From: Streptacidiphilus rugosus AM-16
GTDB lineage: Bacteria > Actinomycetota > Actinomycetes > Streptomycetales > Streptomycetaceae
NCBI RefSeq assembly: GCF_000744655.1
Contig: NZ_JQMJ01000004.1
Span: forward strand, 5,456,001-5,520,000
DNA length: 64,000 bases
Direction of reading: 5' to 3'
The notes beneath the pieces are model-generated. The model was not told where the DNA came from, did not search any database, and was given only the letters and a program-made list of their open reading frames with translations. Of this stretch, positions 16,803 through 23,441 are shown piece by piece. The number at the start of each line of letters is the position of its first letter. Position 1 is the stretch's first letter. The translations under genes were made by a program, and so were the position numbers.

Positions 16803-18323
16803 ATGTCGCCGTCAGCGCCAGAAGTGGACGCCACCTTCCTCGCCCTGCCGCTGCGCCTGCTGGCCGACGCGGCACTCGGCCGCGCCCAGGCCCTCGGCGC
16901 GGGCCACGCCGACTTCCGCCTGGAGCGGGTGCGCAGCGCCTCGCTGCGGCTGCGGGACGCGCGGCCCGCCGGGGGCTCGGACTCGCTGCAGCTCGGGTAC
17001 GCGGTGCGGGTCGTCGTGAACGGCGCCTGGGGCTTCGCCGCCGGGGTCGATCTGACGGCCGAGGCGGTGGCCCGGGTCGCCGAGCAGGCCGTTGCCGTGG
17101 CCCGGTTGTCCGGCGGCCTCAGCGAGGAGGTCGTCGAGCTGGCCGAGGAGCCGTCCTACGGCGAGGTCACCTGGGTCTCCTCGTACCGGGAGAACCCGTT
17201 CGACGTGCCGGACGCGGAGAAGGCCGCGCTGCTCGCCGACTGGAGCCGCAGGCTGCTGGACGCGCAGGGCGTCTCGCACGTGACCGCCTCCCTGCTGTCG
17301 GTCCAGGAGAACAAGTTCTACGCGGACACCGCGGGCACCGTCACGACGCAGCAGCGGGTCCGGCTCCACCCGGAGCTTGAGGCCGTCTCCGTCGACGAGG
17401 CGAGCGGCGCGTTCGACTCGATGCGCACCCTGGCCCCGCCGGTCGGCCGCGGTTTCGAGTACCTGCGCGGCACTGGCTGGGACTGGGACGCGGAGCTCGC
17501 CGAGCTGCCGGAGCTGCTCGCCGAGAAGATGAAGGCCCCCGGCGTCGAGGCGGGCCGCTTCGACCTGGTCATCGACCCGTCGAACCTCTGGCTCACCATC
17601 CACGAGTCGATCGGCCACGCCACCGAGCTGGACCGGGCCCTGGGCTACGAGGCCGCTTACGCGGGCACCTCCTTCGCGACCTTCGACAAGCTCGGCTCGC
17701 TGCGCTACGGCTCCGACCTGATGCATGTCACCGGCGACCGCACGGTCGAGCACGGACTGGCCACCATCGGCTACGACGACGAGGGCGTGCAGACCCAGCA
17801 GTGGGACCTGGTCAAGGACGGCACCCTGGTCGGCTACCAGCTGGACCGGCGGATCGCGAAGCTCAAGGGTCTGGGCCGCTCCAACGGCTGCGCCTTCGCC
17901 GACTCCCCCGCGCACGTGCCGGTGCAGCGGATGGCCAACGTCTCGCTCCAGCCGTCCGCGGCCGGCCCGGACACGGACGGGCTGATCGCCGGGGTCGAGG
18001 ACGGCCTCTACATCGTCGGCGACCGCTCCTGGTCCATCGACATGCAGCGGTACAACTTCCAGTTCACCGGGCAGCGCGCCTACCGGATCCGCTCGGGGAA
18101 GCTGGCCGGTCAGGTGAAGGACTTCGCCTACCAGGGCACCACCACGGACTTCTGGGGCTCCATGGAGGCCGTAGGCGGCCCGCAGACCTACGTCCTCGGT
18201 GGTGCCTTCAACTGCGGCAAGGCCCAGCCCGGCCAGGTCGCGGCCGTCTCCCACGGCTGCCCCTCGGCCCTGTTCCGCGGCGTCAACGTCCTCAACACCA
18301 CGGAGGAGTCCGGCCGCTCCTGA
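16803..18323 (+). CDS. tldD: TldD-family zinc metalloprotease
   Basis: Catalytic subunit (506 residues) of the TldD/TldE protease, which trims unfolded peptides and matures some modified peptides such as microcins. The active-site motif HESIGHATELD (about residue 265) has the HExxxH zinc site, and the C-terminal Cys region AAVSHGCPSALFRG is in place. AAGGAG lies 5 bases before the ATG. In many genomes tldE follows directly; here a reverse-strand five-gene operon of 3.4 kb lies between the two subunit genes. Confidence 0.94.
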   Translation: MSPSAPEVDATFLALPLRLLADAALGRAQALGAGHADFRLERVRSASLRLRDARPAGGSDSLQLGYAVRVVVNGAWGFAAGVDLTAEAVARVAEQAVAVARLSGGLSEEVVELAEEPSYGEVTWVSSYRENPFDVPDAEKAALLADWSRRLLDAQGVSHVTASLLSVQENKFYADTAGTVTTQQRVRLHPELEAVSVDEASGAFDSMRTLAPPVGRGFEYLRGTGWDWDAELAELPELLAEKMKAPGVEAGRFDLVIDPSNLWLTIHESIGHATELDRALGYEAAYAGTSFATFDKLGSLRYGSDLMHVTGDRTVEHGLATIGYDDEGVQTQQWDLVKDGTLVGYQLDRRIAKLKGLGRSNGCAFADSPAHVPVQRMANVSLQPSAAGPDTDGLIAGVEDGLYIVGDRSWSIDMQRYNFQFTGQRAYRIRSGKLAGQVKDFAYQGTTTDFWGSMEAVGGPQTYVLGGAFNCGKAQPGQVAAVSHGCPSALFRGVNVLNTTEESGRS

Positions 18324-18338
18324 GCGGGGCCGGGGCCT

Positions 18339-18767
18339 TCAGCGGGTCAGGACGTGGACCAGGGCGGCGAGGAAGACGCCCGTCACCCAGGTCCACAGCA
18401 GGGAGAAGGCGACGTGCCCGGCCGTGCGGAAGCGGTCGCCGCGCCAGAGGCGGGGGGAGAAGACCGCGAACTGGAAGAGCCAGCGGGCGCCCCAGAAAAG
18501 CGTCTGGCCGACCAGCAGGGCGGTGGCGAGCGGGCCGCCGGCCAGCAGTTGCGGAGCCAGGGTCAACGGCAGCAGGCCCAGCAGGACGCAGGTCAGGGCG
18601 ATGAAGAAGAGGTGCGCGAAGGAGACCTGACGGGTGAGCAGCGTGGTGCCCGCCAGGTCCTTCGGCCAGCCGATCAACCGGGGCAGCAGCGCGTGGAACA
18701 GCCCCACGCCGATCAGGGCTGCGCCGACCAGCGGCAGTTGGAGGTCCAGGGCGAGCAGGCCGTTCAC
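18339..18767 (-). CDS. Four-helix membrane protein of unknown function
   Basis: Hydrophobic protein of 142 residues, not recognised as a named family. About four transmembrane segments are visible: PLVGAALIGVGLFHALL, FAHLFFIALTCVLLGLLPL, a segment ending TALLVGQTLFWGARWLF and a C-terminal SLLWTWVTGVFLAALV. The GTG start overlaps the stop of the methyltransferase gene by 4 bases (GTGA), which fixes it as the last gene of the DoxX/BtaA-like operon. It ends 15 bases from the convergent tldD stop. A role as membrane partner of the lipid-type enzymes upstream is a guess from context. Confidence 0.75.
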   Translation of the reverse strand: MNGLLALDLQLPLVGAALIGVGLFHALLPRLIGWPKDLAGTTLLTRQVSFAHLFFIALTCVLLGLLPLTLAPQLLAGGPLATALLVGQTLFWGARWLFQFAVFSPRLWRGDRFRTAGHVAFSLLWTWVTGVFLAALVHVLTR

Positions 18768-19513
18768 GGGAGCTCCTTGTGGAAGGCGAAGGCGGTGACC
18801 AGTCCGGCGATCCGCCGCTCGGGGCCGTGGCGCAGGCCCGCCCGCTCCGCGAGGCGCAGCCACTCGGCGCGCGGCAGGAAGTGCCAGGCACCCGGGCCGT
18901 AGGCGGCGGTGTTCGCGGCGTCGCGCAGGTGCTCGACGAGTACCAGGGTGCCGCCGGGGCGCAGCACCCGGGCACACTCGGCGAAGAGCGCCTCCCGGTC
19001 GGCCGCGCGCCGCAGTTCGTGCGCCGCGAAGACCGCGAAGACCGTGTCGTGCGCGCCGGACCGAGCCGGCAGGGCGTCGGGCCGGGCGGGCAGCGTGCCC
19101 GGCGCGGGGGCGACCCGCCGTCGGGCGCGGCGGATCGAACCCTCGGTCATGAGCCGCGGATCGTAGAGGTCGACGACCCGCTGCGCCACGTCCGGATGGC
19201 GGGCCGCGAGAGGTCGGCTGACCTCGTCGAGTCCGGCCGAGACGACGAGGTGATCCCCCGGCCCCGCGGGCAGCAGCGCGCCGAGCCAGCCGAGGGCGAA
19301 GGGCCGCCCGCGGTCGTAGACCCACCAGGTGGCCGCGCTGCTGCCCAGCAGCAGGCCCGCCGCCGCCAGCCCTCCCGCGCGGGCGAGCAGCGCCGGTCCC
19401 CCGTGCAGCCGCCGCGAGAGCGCCCAACCCGCGGCCGCCGCACCACAGCCCGCGGCGTACATCGGCCAGTTGAAGAGGGCGACCTCACGCACCCCTGACG
19501 GTCGGTCGGTCAC
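18764..19513 (-). CDS. Membrane-anchored class I methyltransferase-like protein
   Basis: Protein of 249 residues. Two hydrophobic stretches near the N-terminus (about 14-28 and 42-60) suggest membrane anchoring. A SAM-methyltransferase-like domain follows (about 85-245): the motif I position reads HLVVSAGLDE instead of a GxGxG loop, an acidic motif II reads VVDLYDPR, and post-motif strands are AVFAAHEL and RVLRPGGTLVLVEHL. The C-terminal EWLRLAERAGL is typical. It overlaps both neighbours by 4 bases. Given the BtaA-like gene in the same operon it might methylate the amino group of a lipid head group, as BtaB does, but this is inference. Confidence 0.72.
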   Translation of the reverse strand: MTDRPSGVREVALFNWPMYAAGCGAAAAGWALSRRLHGGPALLARAGGLAAAGLLLGSSAATWWVYDRGRPFALGWLGALLPAGPGDHLVVSAGLDEVSRPLAARHPDVAQRVVDLYDPRLMTEGSIRRARRRVAPAPGTLPARPDALPARSGAHDTVFAVFAAHELRRAADREALFAECARVLRPGGTLVLVEHLRDAANTAAYGPGAWHFLPRAEWLRLAERAGLRHGPERRIAGLVTAFAFHKELP

Positions 19514-20370
19514 CGCTCGGCCCCGTTCCTGGCGCGGCGGCTGCCGGCCTCCCAGCCGTACTGCACGCCCGCGACGTGGAAGGCGTTGGCGAGGCGGGGC
19601 CGGGCGCCCGCGAAGGGCCCGTGGTCGAAGAAGGTCAGCGTGGGGACCTCCACGGCGACGGGCACCGGGTCCCAGGTCGTCCTGGTGGCCTTGACGACGA
19701 TCACGGAGTCCGTCTGCGGCTCGTAGTCGAAGGTGTAGGGCAGCGGGCCGGCGAAGCGCCGGGCGTCCTTGGCGTTCGCGAACGAGCTGCCGTGCGGCAG
19801 CGGGGCCGGCGTTCCGTCACCGATCGCGGCCCGGACGGCCAGGTCGGCCCTGCCGTCGGCGCTGTCCACGCGGAAGGAGAGGGTGTCGCCCTCGACGCCG
19901 GTGGCGATCCGCGCCCGGCGGTAGTGGTAGCGGGTGAGCAGGTTCCCGCCCAGCACCATGAGCCGGTCGTCGGTGTCGCTGCGCAGGATCTGCAGGCCGC
20001 GCATGGTGCGGCCGCCCGGGGTCGGGAAGCGGGTGAAGATCCGGTACCCGGTCAGCACGTGGTCCGCGCCGAGCCGTGCGGGGAGGAAGGAGGGACGCAG
20101 CGCCCTGGCGTCCACGACGGCCACCGCGACGAAGCCGTGCTCGACGCCGTCCGCGTCGGTGTAGGTGTCCAGCGCCAGGCCGGGCAGCACGAGCGGGGCG
20201 AGCACGCTCGGCGGCAGCGCGTAGGTGAGGACGAGCGAGTGCGCGAACCAGGTCCGCATCGGCAGCGGATGCCGCTGCAACCGGTGACGCGGCGACAGCC
20301 GGCTGAGGGCGGACAGACCCGGGGTCCGGCGATTCGGGGCCGGACGGTTCACGGTGTGACGGATCGGCAT
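19510..20370 (-). CDS. DUF2071-family protein
   Basis: Protein of 286 residues. It shows the DUF2071 (acetoacetate-decarboxylase-like) pattern: ALPPSVLAPLVLPGLALDTY, then FVAVAVVDARALRPSF, GYRIFTRFPTPGG and LLTRYHYRRARI. The last third (SSFANAKDARRFAGPLPYTF onward) is less familiar. ATG at 20370 follows AAGGGAG. The start overlaps the end of the BtaA-like gene by 22 bases, and the stop overlaps the methyltransferase start by 4 bases. Biochemical function of the family is unknown. Confidence 0.75.
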   Translation of the reverse strand: MPIRHTVNRPAPNRRTPGLSALSRLSPRHRLQRHPLPMRTWFAHSLVLTYALPPSVLAPLVLPGLALDTYTDADGVEHGFVAVAVVDARALRPSFLPARLGADHVLTGYRIFTRFPTPGGRTMRGLQILRSDTDDRLMVLGGNLLTRYHYRRARIATGVEGDTLSFRVDSADGRADLAVRAAIGDGTPAPLPHGSSFANAKDARRFAGPLPYTFDYEPQTDSVIVVKATRTTWDPVPVAVEVPTLTFFDHGPFAGARPRLANAFHVAGVQYGWEAGSRRARNGAER

Positions 20371-21305
20371 GACGGTGCTCCCTTCCCGGCGTCGCCGAGT
20401 CGGAGGACCCGGACCACGCCCCACAGCATCGATCGGTCGTCGGCCGCCGAGCCGGGCCCGGCGGGGCCCGGTCGGCGGACGCTGCGCAGCACGGCCACCC
20501 CGCCCGGCCGCACCGCGTGGTCGACGGCGGCGCGCAACCGGCGGGCGAACGCCGGTCCCGGGCCGTCGACGACGTTGGACAGGGTGACCGCGTCGTAGGC
20601 GCCGCGCGGTGCCCGCTCCAGGTGCTCGACGACGTCACCGAGCACCAGTCGCACGCGGGCGCCGGCCGCGGGCAGGCCGCCCCCGGCGGTTCCCTGCGGC
20701 TCCGTGCCTGCGAGCAGCCGCCAGGCCCAGGGGTTCGCGGAGTTGGGATGGCGACTCACCGTCCGCTCGATCCTGCGGCGCAGGACGACGTCGAACCCGC
20801 TGGGCACGACGCCGCGGAAGGCCGGCCGCAGGGCGAGCGCGAGTGCGCCGGCCGGGCGCAGCATCAGGGCCATCAGTCGCCGCAGTGCGGCGCTGTCGAG
20901 TTCGTCCCGCCACCGGCGGGCCTGCTCGGCGGGATCGTCCAGCCGCAGGAAGCGGCCGAGCTCCGGGGCACGCCAGGCGGGCGTGACGCCGCGCGCGGCG
21001 GAGCGGCCCAGCGCGAGCAGGCGTTCGGCGGAGCCCGCCACGGCCGGTGCGCCGTCCTCCAGCCGACCGCGGGCGTAGGCGAGTTGTACGGGGTTCAGGT
21101 CCACGGCGGTGACCTCGTACCCGGCGGCGGCCAGGGCGGCGGCCGTGTCCCCGGCCGAGGCGATGCACAGCACCCGCGCACCGGGCGGCGGAAACGCCGC
21201 CAGCTCGATTCCCGTGTCCTCGTACATCCGGCCGAAGAGCACGCCGGGCCGCCGGGACGGTCCGACGGACAGCAGGCGTCCCTCGGCCCAGGGGGTGCCG
21301 CTCAT
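20349..21305 (-). CDS. BtaA-like (DUF3419) SAM:diacylglycerol 3-amino-3-carboxypropyltransferase family protein
   Basis: Protein of 318 residues. The segment ARVLCIASAGDTAAALAAAG followed by EVTAVDLNPVQLAYARGRL matches the DUF3419/BtaA cofactor region, where a non-classical SAM-binding fold transfers the 3-amino-3-carboxypropyl group to diacylglycerol as the first step of betaine-lipid synthesis. FGRMYEDTGIELAAF near the N-terminus also fits. The C-terminal part contains DAVTLSNVVDG and a carboxyl arm typical of the family. It overlaps the DoxX-like gene (4 bases) and the DUF2071 gene (22 bases). It is a family-level assignment; whether it makes a lipid is untested. Confidence 0.68.
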   Translation of the reverse strand: MSGTPWAEGRLLSVGPSRRPGVLFGRMYEDTGIELAAFPPPGARVLCIASAGDTAAALAAAGYEVTAVDLNPVQLAYARGRLEDGAPAVAGSAERLLALGRSAARGVTPAWRAPELGRFLRLDDPAEQARRWRDELDSAALRRLMALMLRPAGALALALRPAFRGVVPSGFDVVLRRRIERTVSRHPNSANPWAWRLLAGTEPQGTAGGGLPAAGARVRLVLGDVVEHLERAPRGAYDAVTLSNVVDGPGPAFARRLRAAVDHAVRPGGVAVLRSVRRPGPAGPGSAADDRSMLWGVVRVLRLGDAGKGAPSCRSVTP

Positions 21306-21721
21306 GCCGCGGCCGCCGGACGCGGGCCCGCCGCCGGGACACCGCTGCCGCGCCGCGCCGTCGCCACCGTCCAGACCAGGGCGATCAGTGCGAGGTCCTG
21401 GACGACCAGACGACCCGGCTCGGGGATCCGGCCGGAGGCGAAGAGCAGGCCACCGGTGTTGAAGCCGACGATCAGCCCGGTCTGCACGGCCGCCGCGAGC
21501 AGCGGCCTGTGACCGCTGAGCACCCACAGCCCGACGGCGATCTCGACCAGCCCGATGCCGACGAGCACCGCGGCGACGGCCCCGGCGGGCAGCAGCGGCA
21601 CGCTTCCGACGATGGCGTGCTGATCCGCCCGCCCCGGCCAGATCTTGCACCACAGGCCCTCGTAGAACCAGGTCGCCGCGACCGCCGCAGCCGGCGCGGC
21701 GGTCCGCCAGGAACGTGCCAT
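21302..21721 (-). CDS. DoxX-like membrane protein (DoxX_3 type)
   Basis: Membrane protein of 139 residues with four helices. The N-terminal WFYEGLWCKIW, then VPLLPAGAVAAVLVGIGLVE, VGLWVLSGH and FNTGGLLFASGRIPEPGRLV match the DoxX-like PF13781 pattern. Such proteins often sit in short operons with soluble enzymes and have no fixed function. ATG at 21721 follows GGGGGAGAGGA. It is the first gene of the five-gene reverse-strand operon between tldD and tldE, about 100 bases after a candidate promoter. Confidence 0.8.
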   Translation of the reverse strand: MARSWRTAAPAAAVAATWFYEGLWCKIWPGRADQHAIVGSVPLLPAGAVAAVLVGIGLVEIAVGLWVLSGHRPLLAAAVQTGLIVGFNTGGLLFASGRIPEPGRLVVQDLALIALVWTVATARRGSGVPAAGPRPAAAA

Positions 21722-21827
21722 CGGATCGTCCTCTCCCCCGGCCCGCGGGCGAAGGACGCCGCGCGGACGGCATGACGGAGTACCCCCGGTCGACGCCGTG
21801 CGCCCCGGGCTTCCCTCTGTGCGCCTC

Positions 21828-21856
21828 ATCATGGCGCACATTTTGAACATGTTCAA
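21828..21856 (-). promoter_or_regulatory. Promoter of the DoxX/BtaA-like operon with palindromic operator
   Basis: On the minus strand, -35 TTGAAC (21856-21851) and -10 CATGAT (21833-21828) are separated by exactly 17 bases. The -35 is the left half of a perfect 14-bp palindrome, TTGAACATGTTCAA (21843-21856), so a repressor bound there would block RNA polymerase. The palindrome also fits the TnnAACnnGTTnnA pattern known for KstR-type TetR repressors. Which regulator binds cannot be told. Confidence 0.55.
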
Positions 21857-21997
21857 TACTTGCTTCGCCGCTGGTCACAGCCTTGGCGCCATTCCACGGG
21901 CCGAACAGGGAAGCAGCCGGACCCCGGTCGGGGCGGGCGCGGCGACGGCGCGGTCGTGGTTACGTCGCACCCGGGTCGGGCCCTACCTTTGATCCCA

Positions 21998-22036
21998 TGA
22001 CGACCGATACGGGCCAGCAGGAAGCGGGCCGCTGAT
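21998..22036 (+). other. Possible 12-codon leader ORF before tldE
   Basis: ATG at 21998 opens a 12-codon frame (MTTDTGQQEAGR) whose TGA overlaps the tldE ATG (TGATG). The AGCAGGAAG stretch inside it also serves as the tldE ribosome site. It could couple translation or be a chance frame. Low support. Confidence 0.25.
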
Positions 22037-23441
22037 GAGCAACCAGAACACCGGGCCCCACGAGCTCGTCGAGCGTGCCCTGGAGCTGTCCCGCGCGGAC
22101 GGGTGCGTCGTCATCGCCGACGAGGAGTCGACCGCCAACCTCCGGTGGGCCGGGAACAGCCTGACCACCAACGGCGTCACCCGCGGGCGCACGCTCACCG
22201 TGATCGCCACCGTCGACGGCCAGGAGGGCACCGCCGCCGGGGTCGTCTCGCGGGAGGCGGTGACCGCCGACGACATCGAGTCGCTGGTGCGCGCGGCCGA
22301 GGCCGCCGCGCGGGCGGCGGGTCCGGCCGAGGACGCACAGCCGCTGCTCGCCCCGAGCGGGCCGGTCTCCGCCGACTTCACCGATGCCCCGGCCGAGACC
22401 TCCGTCGAGGTCTTCTCCGCCTTCGCGCCCGCGCTCGGGGAGGCCCTCGGCCTGTCCCGCAAGAGCGGCCGGCTGCTCTACGGCTTCGCCAACCACATGG
22501 TGACCTCCAGTTACCTGGGCACCTCCACCGGCGTCCGGCTCCGGCACGACCAGCCGACCGGCACGCTGGAGCTGAACGCCAAGACCGCGGACCTTTCCGC
22601 CTCCGCCTGGGCGGGCGCGGCCACCCGCGACTTCCGCGACGTGGACCCCGAGGCGCTGGAGGCGCAGCTCGCGCAGCGTCTGGCCTGGGCCGAGCGGAAG
22701 GTCGACCTGCCGGCCGGGCGCTACGAGACGCTTCTCCCGCCCTCGGCGCTGGCCGACCTGATGATCAACCTGGCCTGGTCGGCGGGCGGCCGGGACGCCA
22801 AGGAGGGACGCTCGGTCTTCTCCAGGCCCGGCGGGAAGACCCGTCTCGGCGAGCGGCTCTCGCCGCTGCCGCTGACGCTGCGCAGCGACCCGGCCCACCC
22901 GGGCCTGGAGTGCGCGCCCTTCGCCCTCGCGCACGCCTCGGGCGGCGACAGCTCCGTCTTCGACAACGGCCTGCCGCTGGCTCCCACCGACTGGATCCGT
23001 GACGGCGAGCTCACCAACCTGCTGACCACGCGTCACTCGGCGGGACTGACCGGTCTTCCGGTCCGGCCCGAGATCGACAACCTGGTCCTCGAGGGCGCGG
23101 ACCCGACGTCGGGCCCGACGTTGGAGGAGATGGTCGCCCGCACCGAGCGCGGGCTGCTGCTCACCTGCCTCTGGTACATCCGCGAGGTCGACCCGGCGAC
23201 GCTGCTGCTGACCGGCCTCACCAGGGACGGCGTCTATCTGGTGGAGAACGGCGAGGTCACCGGGGCGGTGAACAACTTCCGCTTCAACGAGTCCCCGGTC
23301 GACCTGCTCGGCCGGATCACCGAGGTGGGACGCACCGAGCGCTGCCTGCCGCGCGAGTGGAGCGACTGGTTCACCCGGGCCGCCATGCCGCCGGTGCGGG
23401 TCGCCGACTTCCACATGAGCTCGGTGAGCCAGGCCTCCTGA
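22035..23441 (+). CDS. tldE: TldE/PmbA-family protease subunit
   Basis: Non-catalytic partner (468 residues) of TldD; the two form the heterodimeric protease. There is no HExxxH motif, as expected for this subunit. Family segments include EESTANLRWAGNSLTTNGV near the N-terminus, FSRPGGKTRLGERLSPLPL and the C-terminal GLTRDGVYLVENGEVTGAVN followed by NNFRFNESPVDLL. The ATG at 22035 follows GGAAGCGGG. It lies 3.7 kb from tldD, with a reverse-strand operon between, and must have its own promoter in 21860-22030. A hairpin terminator follows. Confidence 0.92.
   Translation: MSNQNTGPHELVERALELSRADGCVVIADEESTANLRWAGNSLTTNGVTRGRTLTVIATVDGQEGTAAGVVSREAVTADDIESLVRAAEAAARAAGPAEDAQPLLAPSGPVSADFTDAPAETSVEVFSAFAPALGEALGLSRKSGRLLYGFANHMVTSSYLGTSTGVRLRHDQPTGTLELNAKTADLSASAWAGAATRDFRDVDPEALEAQLAQRLAWAERKVDLPAGRYETLLPPSALADLMINLAWSAGGRDAKEGRSVFSRPGGKTRLGERLSPLPLTLRSDPAHPGLECAPFALAHASGGDSSVFDNGLPLAPTDWIRDGELTNLLTTRHSAGLTGLPVRPEIDNLVLEGADPTSGPTLEEMVARTERGLLLTCLWYIREVDPATLLLTGLTRDGVYLVENGEVTGAVNNFRFNESPVDLLGRITEVGRTERCLPREWSDWFTRAAMPPVRVADFHMSSVSQAS

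Follow-up and report, generated by a model that had tools for sequence, protein, structure and literature searches.

A recurrent five-gene cassette in Streptacidiphilus rugosus

The window analysed here, a stretch of 64,000 nucleotides from Streptacidiphilus rugosus AM-16, contains a compact cassette of five minus-strand genes encoding a DoxX_3 family membrane protein, a relative of the betaine-lipid enzyme BtaA (family DUF3419), a DUF2071 protein, a methyltransferase-like (MT-like) protein and a small membrane protein (gene 5). Comparison with related genomes suggests that the last three genes form the core of a unit that moves between Actinomycetes, and that a palindrome over the promoter may place the cassette under a TetR-type repressor. 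The reading that we favour, tentatively, is that this mobile cassette encodes a membrane-bound module modifying a lipid or other lipophilic substrate, with BtaA and DoxX optional and with TetR in control.

Re-reading of the open reading frames (ORFs) and Pfam searches agree with a preliminary description of the window that the five genes overlap one another and lie between tldD and tldE (Table 1). From DoxX to gene 5 the overlaps are 4, 22, 4 and 4 nucleotides, and both flanking genes have PmbA/TldD domain matches in Pfam. The G+C content of the cassette in 500-base steps is 0.72–0.78, mostly above 0.74, slightly higher than that of tldD and tldE (0.70–0.76). The TTG at 21856 earlier proposed as the DoxX start did not hold: the codon falls on the palindrome, and the homologues fit the ATG at 21721.

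Two sets of loci were compared: 25 fetched from Streptacidiphilus and other Streptomycetaceae genomes selected for a BtaA-like gene (the fetched loci), and 48 relatives found through the fifth protein out of 80 stretches matching a pattern (the named loci). Many genomes are present in both sets. All five genes are recognisable and in order in 20 of the 25 fetched loci; the exceptions are L051, which is without the last gene, L058 and L059 with a partial BtaA, and L060 and L061, which are decayed. Among the named loci, 35 have five genes, in some of which a member is shortened or broken (for example L103 and L110), six have DUF2071, MT-like and gene 5, and seven have other contents, some being ended by a contig edge. 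Because the five-gene order recurs in both sets, the cassette is not a chance association. The named-locus hosts are Streptacidiphilus, Kitasatospora, Streptomyces, Streptantibioticus, Nocardiopsis, Glycomyces, Fodinicola (broken pieces) and Amycolatopsis, and the order is kept in at least four Actinomycete families (Streptomycetaceae, Nocardiopsidaceae, Glycomycetaceae and Pseudonocardiaceae). With start codons picked by script, an exact 4-nucleotide overlap is found in the named loci at 30 of 35 DoxX/BtaA, 31 of 42 DUF2071/MT-like and 39 of 45 MT-like/gene 5 junctions; the BtaA/DUF2071 junction has exactly 4 nucleotides in 5 of 35 and an overlap of any length in 32 of 35.

The cassette is sparsely distributed. 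At E 0.001 the BtaA-like query finds matches, mostly short and generic ones, in 3 of the 14 genus genomes and in 63 of the 297 family genomes; above 100 bits it matches 2 of 14 (its own and G006) and 26 of 297, own included. The fifth protein is present in 3 of 296 sampled genomes of the class, own included. An MT-like profile exceeds 100 bits in 4 of 394 genomes, of which G000, G478 and G501 are known cassette carriers and the fourth is G1020, and elsewhere reaches at most 51 bits among the matches listed, a sharp gap in score. DUF3419 is therefore rare in the phylum, where 3 of 396 genomes, counting the host itself, exceed the PF11899 cut-off. The cassette is also found on NZ_FOAZ01000022.1 of Streptacidiphilus jiangxiensis. 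Six plasmid records, all from Streptomyces, match DUF2071 at E 1e-5, and the three examined are all linear: one has five genes, and in two an ArsR gene leads the final three. Neither tldD nor tldE stands beside the cassette in any of the stretches around the 25 fetched and 48 named loci; the operon lies at other places there. In the BtaA tree described below, the Glycomyces row is placed among Nocardiopsis rows, in keeping with transfer of the cassette. By its distribution, the cassette is a scattered, transferable unit found at differing genomic sites.

A regulator or mobile-element gene accompanying the cassette was considered and set aside. Clustering of flanking ORFs, which were called by a composition filter that misses some genes, gave no companion widely common beyond the Streptantibioticus syntenic group; a short-chain-dehydrogenase-like flank cluster covers six loci, two of them from one genome. 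In the Streptantibioticus group (L054–L057, L059) the cassette adjoins GTTTCACGTGAAAC repeats, which we take to be parS-like, and is without the palindrome. In G501 (L116 7860–10258) the cassette's MT-like gene is split, with about 1.4 kb between its two parts. An NCBIfam scan of the five proteins gave nothing above cut-off, and the open-access literature searched, which lacks most subscription journals, yielded no account of this gene set. The five-gene set is apparently undescribed.

Loci without DoxX and BtaA

Six named loci (L068, L070, L071, L075, L076 and L093) hold the DUF2071, MT-like and gene 5 trio in the absence of DoxX and BtaA; the trio can therefore dispense with BtaA. The genomes of these loci contain no full-length BtaA-like gene (0 of 6), and three have short matches, one of which is within the remnant in L068. 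In L068 (S. neutrinimicus), the promoter, the leader and the first bases of DoxX are followed by BtaA pieces of 61 and 46 nucleotides and then by DUF2071, and the reading frames of the trio are open. In L070, L075 and L093 the promoter and leader run directly into DUF2071. From these remnants, DoxX and BtaA were deleted together in four loci in which the last three genes stay open, and the deletion breakpoints of L068 differ from those of the other three. L076 is plasmid pSA3239, with an ArsR gene in front of the trio. Across these loci, the trio looks like the working core of the cassette and DoxX and BtaA like an optional addition.

A divergent BtaA homologue

The second cassette protein matches PF11899 (DUF3419) with 46.6 bits against a cut-off of 28.2, and hhalign aligns it to four canonical-type BtaA proteins with a probability of 97.3% and E 2e-11 over 257 columns (residues 21–281). 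These matches uphold the DUF3419/BtaA ancestry that had been proposed. The BtaA-like proteins are 268–347 amino acids long, compared with 404–433 for the canonical rows, and their middle part is about 100 residues shorter. They keep YEDP, IAS-G, VD-NP and a C-terminal DR, and the canonical GGCN reads AGDT. In the tree, the 34 operon rows lie on one side of a branch with support 100/99 and the four canonical rows on the other, with two further DUF3419 rows placed one on each side. The canonical rows were chosen by DUF3419 score or database similarity, none being recognised as an assayed enzyme, and the three outgroup rows have long branches, which makes the depth of the split unsure. Judged by alignment and tree, the protein is a true DUF3419 homologue over most of its length and belongs to a separate, shorter clade. 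Thus the idea that it would group with BtaA and share its residues stands for the S-adenosylmethionine (SAM)-site motifs but not for the clade.

The copies were aligned in several sets. Alignment A1 has 14 of the 25 fetched BtaA-like copies, leaving out those whose match passed a stop and L059–L061; A2, A3 and A4 have 16, 18 and 16 fetched copies; A5 has 33 of the 35 named BtaA-like copies (L103 and L110 left out), the same 33 that are in the tree; and A6 and A7 have 41 of 48 and 30 of 45 named copies, hand-picked for completeness and spread. A second DUF3419 type occurs in another Actinomycete family (L213 1291–2469, and L216), where the next protein is heme-oxygenase-like by eye.

The model of the BtaA-like protein (predicted local distance difference test score, pLDDT, 87.1) shows a class I SAM fold into which a helical part is inserted. 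The 50 rows listed by VIA-align are mostly methyltransferases, with a best Z of 12.7 among the matches listed. Foldseek gives weak fold matches that include spermidine synthases and the nocardicin 3-amino-3-carboxypropyl transferase 8zhv; the latter resembles the model weakly in overall fold over 296 columns, but the TM-score is 0.32 and a PDB sequence search with the protein (E up to 0.1, 16 matches) does not include it. If the BtaA-like protein used SAM internally, or if its target were not a lipid but a small molecule such as azetidine-carboxylate, homoserine lactone or some natural product, the class I fold and the many small-molecule enzymes among the weak matches, the nocardicin enzyme included, would fit, as would the DUF3419 protein of L213 that precedes the heme-oxygenase-like gene. 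The membrane-linked partners of the protein and the six loci from which DoxX and BtaA are both missing speak against such a role, which we regard as very unlikely.

The betaine-lipid question

The preliminary description had suggested that the cassette could build a modified, possibly phosphorus-free membrane lipid not described for Streptomyces; the genus of the host is in fact Streptacidiphilus. In a true betaine-lipid pathway, the BtaA-like protein would make diacylglyceryl homoserine and the MT-like protein would trimethylate it, giving a phosphorus-free membrane lipid. In common with BtaA/BtaB of Alphaproteobacteria, one of the closest known systems, the cassette has DUF3419 homology over the 257 aligned columns, SAM-site motifs of the (Y/W)EDP, IAS-G and VD-NP type, and a SAM-fold methyltransferase-like neighbour within the operon. 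A presumed Rhizobium btaA-btaB pair (L222, annotated as DUF3419 and class I methyltransferase) also overlaps by 4 nucleotides. However, the cassette protein is about 100 residues shorter and falls outside the four canonical rows, motif I of the MT-like protein is altered, and the MT-like protein does not specifically resemble the single BtaB-position protein compared, that of L222 (BLASTP E 0.41, hhalign probability 5.7%). The cassette also differs in adding DoxX, DUF2071 and a membrane protein, in retaining DUF2071, the MT-like gene and gene 5 without BtaA in some loci, and in having no PHO box above background.

Phosphate control of the cassette was rejected on this last ground. Scored against the sequence that we take to be the PHO-box consensus, the best repeat upstream of DoxX reaches 10 of 14; a score of at least 10 also arises in 61 of 300 pieces drawn at random from the window, and upstream of DoxX in 7 of 36 named loci. 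Sinorhizobium btaAB is described as PhoB-regulated (PMC3972451) and ornithine lipids as the most common phosphorus-free lipids in Streptomyces (PMC7937720), which also tells against betaine lipids here. A betaine-like lipid is a possible product of the cassette, and what stands of the original suggestion is the DUF3419 ancestry; the clade, the BtaB partner, phosphate control and the need for BtaA count against it. We consider the complete betaine-lipid pathway improbable.

The other four proteins

The DoxX_3 protein matches PF13781 with 43.9 bits (cut-off 25) and the DUF2071 protein matches PF09844 with 38.6 bits (cut-off 27), the matches of the latter to most homologues starting at residue 23–28. 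DUF2071 has been related to the acetoacetate decarboxylase (ADC)-like fold, with the catalytic Schiff-base lysine not conserved (PMC4520260). The cassette member scores as a member of this family; what sets it apart is its setting, a membrane cassette that also encodes MT-like and DoxX proteins. The MT-like protein matches Methyltransf_11 (PF08241) with 34.7 bits (cut-off 21.2). It has an invariant NWP, a hydrophobic stretch and then a SAM-fold domain with invariant HELR and EH-R...N...GPGA-HF; motif I, placed by eye, reads G-[LF]-D-E with no GxGxG in all 31 aligned rows.

For gene 5, no Pfam family and no PDB sequence relative were found at E up to 1. Residues H25, R46, H52, R95 and H118 are invariant, and the model is a helical bundle (pLDDT 93.5). 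Its matches to solved folds are common helical bundles only, including tetraspanins and VKOR-like proteins (best Z 10.9), and none of these was taken as its fold. The DoxX_3 protein, the hydrophobic N-terminus of the MT-like protein and the predicted bundle of gene 5 give the cassette its membrane character, which we count in favour of a membrane-bound module.

A promoter palindrome and a candidate TetR regulon

Of the 25 fetched loci 18, and of the 48 named loci also 18, carry the sequence TTGAAC-RY-GTTCAA upstream of the operon. CATGAT or CATGCT follows 17–18 nucleotides past TTGAAC in 13 of these 18 named loci, and from this spacing the palindrome covers the –35 box. Strings of this operator also occur in six published papers, one of them on Rex in S. 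avermitilis. Across 11 genomes selected as cassette carriers there are 48 sites, and none for a reversed control. In 35 further stretches around other sites, the palindrome precedes a gene for a membrane protein of about 200 amino acids (8 of the 11 genomes) or for an epimerase with DUF1731 (two), and in three it lies close to a TetR gene; this TetR gene, in G006, is 3' of a gene for a DCC1-like thiol-disulfide oxidoreductase.

The TetR protein (G000:C4:7037618-7038541) is a close relative of PDB 3c07, a solved structure (E 9.7e-78). We take 3c07, and with it the TetR, to correspond to SCO4850, a name that a paper search did not confirm; by this numbering SCO4848 and SCO4849 presumably adjoin the TetR gene. 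The table entries found for SCO4850 assign it no function. Among 16 TetR loci, the palindrome, with at most two mismatches, lies within 1.5 kb in 12, and a pair 43–46 nucleotides apart is found in 8. Across the 25 cassette loci the comparison rate is 0.042 per kb (18 sites, as many as the cassettes' own palindromes), which corresponds to about 0.16 expected per TetR locus. Paired palindromes beside a 3c07-like TetR gene were seen at L148, L152 and L181–L196. At E 1e-60 the TetR was found in 16 of 19 genomes searched; it was not found in G025, G039 and G045, whose cassettes lie by parS-like repeats without the palindrome. The recurrence of the palindrome beside TetR and other membrane genes suggests a small regulon, in which TetR would be the binder of the putative operator. 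According to PMC7460540, the phiBT1 attB site lies in SCO4848, and spore germination may be delayed when SCO4849 is lost. The same operator was looked for before the ArsR-led plasmid versions and is absent; a different palindrome is present there.

The regulatory arrangement also bears on whether the operon serves detoxification or self-protection, chemically altering or sequestering a toxic lipophilic substance, self-made or of foreign origin, which would double as the ligand of TetR or of the plasmid ArsR. The TetR-type operator, the ArsR genes leading linear-plasmid copies, the patchy spread and the decayed copies in some genomes would all be explained, but the five proteins include no transporter or known resistance family (Pfam, NCBIfam) and no antibiotic-cluster gene is conserved alongside in the flanks compared. 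We hold this explanation to be unlikely.

The tldD/tldE junction

The search covered 13 further genomes of the genus, and in 11 of them the ends of the tldD and tldE matches are 3–30 nucleotides apart. The spacing is 14.8 kb in G004 and 87 kb in G006, and the parts of these gaps that were read (14.5 kb and 13 kb) contain genes other than the cassette; G006 carries its cassette at a separate place (L037), outside the gap. The tldD/tldE junction (window 18323–22035; L214, L215) has three different contents in three Streptacidiphilus genomes, of 3.7, 14.8 and 87 kb. A tldD tail ending in ESGRS is common to the window, G004 and G006, and the former tldD tail is kept as a mini-ORF directly before tldE in the window and G004. 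From the shared tail and the retained mini-ORF, the split is probably older than, or independent of, the present content of the gap. The mini-ORF may preserve translational coupling after the split. The cassette had been described as inserted between tldD and tldE; the two genes are indeed uninterrupted in most other genomes of the genus, but the gap is variable and was not opened by the cassette alone. On this comparison, three different contents occupy a region that is variable in the clade, and the cassette is one of them.

Table 1. Positions of the cassette genes, flanking genes and promoter elements in the window.
Feature	Position	Strand	Basis
Window, within a 9.0 Mb genome	G000:C4:5456001-5520000		
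DoxX_3 family membrane protein, 139 aa	21302-21721	minus	Pfam PF13781
DUF3419/BtaA-like protein with SAM-binding fold, 318 aa, divergent short clade	20349-21305	minus	PF11899, hhalign, model, tree
DUF2071 protein, 286 aa, start uncertain	19510-20370	minus	PF09844
MT-like protein, N-terminal hydrophobic segment, motif I = G-[LF]-D-E	18764-19513	minus	PF08241, alignment
Small membrane protein (gene 5), 142 aa, predicted helical bundle	18339-18767	minus	model
tldD flank	16803-18323	plus	PF19289, PF01523
tldE/pmbA flank	22035-23441	plus	PF19289
12-codon mini-ORF MTTDTGQQEAGR, former tldD tail, overlaps tldE start	21997-22035	plus	
Operator-like palindrome TTGAACATGTTCAA; first six bases = –35-like element	21843-21856	minus	0 matches in 100 shuffles
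–10-like CATGAT, 17 nt after TTGAAC	21828-21833	minus	read from sequence

A proposed function for the cassette

In the membrane-bound module that we favour, the core would comprise the DUF2071 protein, with the ADC-like fold described in the literature and probably a role in substrate binding, together with the membrane-anchored MT-like protein and the small integral membrane protein, presumably as a complex. In the optional pair, the BtaA-family enzyme would take the 3-amino-3-carboxypropyl group from SAM and pass it to an acceptor that is displayed together with DoxX. Such a transfer, with the acceptor bound to the membrane, is inferred from BtaA chemistry as given in PMC3972451 and PMC10491745. 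In lineages with the palindrome, a TetR encoded elsewhere would bind TTGAAC-RY-GTTCAA over the –35 box and repress the operon until released by a signal, probably lipophilic.

Several observations weigh against this proposal. The structure matches of the BtaA-like model are to class I methyltransferases in general, and the MT-like protein may not be a SAM user. Joint deletion of DoxX and BtaA is shown in 4 of the 6 loci, L071 and L076 being without a remnant, and the pair is not strict, as L058/L084 and L059/L103 keep DoxX with a partial BtaA. Most of the remaining sites in the 35 stretches precede dissimilar genes or no clear gene, and no palindrome precedes the operon in 7 of the 25 fetched loci or in 30 of the 48 named ones, some of the named ones being ended by a contig edge or having one or two genes. 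The TetR is present in the cassette-free genomes G001, G003 and G021, and in G191 and G220, whose cassettes are without the palindrome. With such mixed presence, co-occurrence of TetR, cassette and palindrome says little.

The natural three-gene versions separate the BtaA/DoxX step from the remainder and are ready-made test strains, and the palindrome links the cassette to a conserved TetR with a relative of solved structure (3c07), so that the inducing signal is open to direct search. A more specific proposal, which we offer as a speculation with the balance against it, is that Actinomycetes contain an aminocarboxypropylated membrane lipid of a class not described before: the divergent BtaA and DoxX would make it, the trio would process it, and TetR would sense the state of the membrane and switch the system on. 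The MT-like protein, its SAM loop rebuilt, is perhaps no methyltransferase. Should the module that we favour be right, Gram-positive soil bacteria would have a second gene-defined way in which they could couple the aminocarboxypropyl moiety of SAM to lipids, and DUF2071, DoxX_3 and a membrane family without a name would gain functions.

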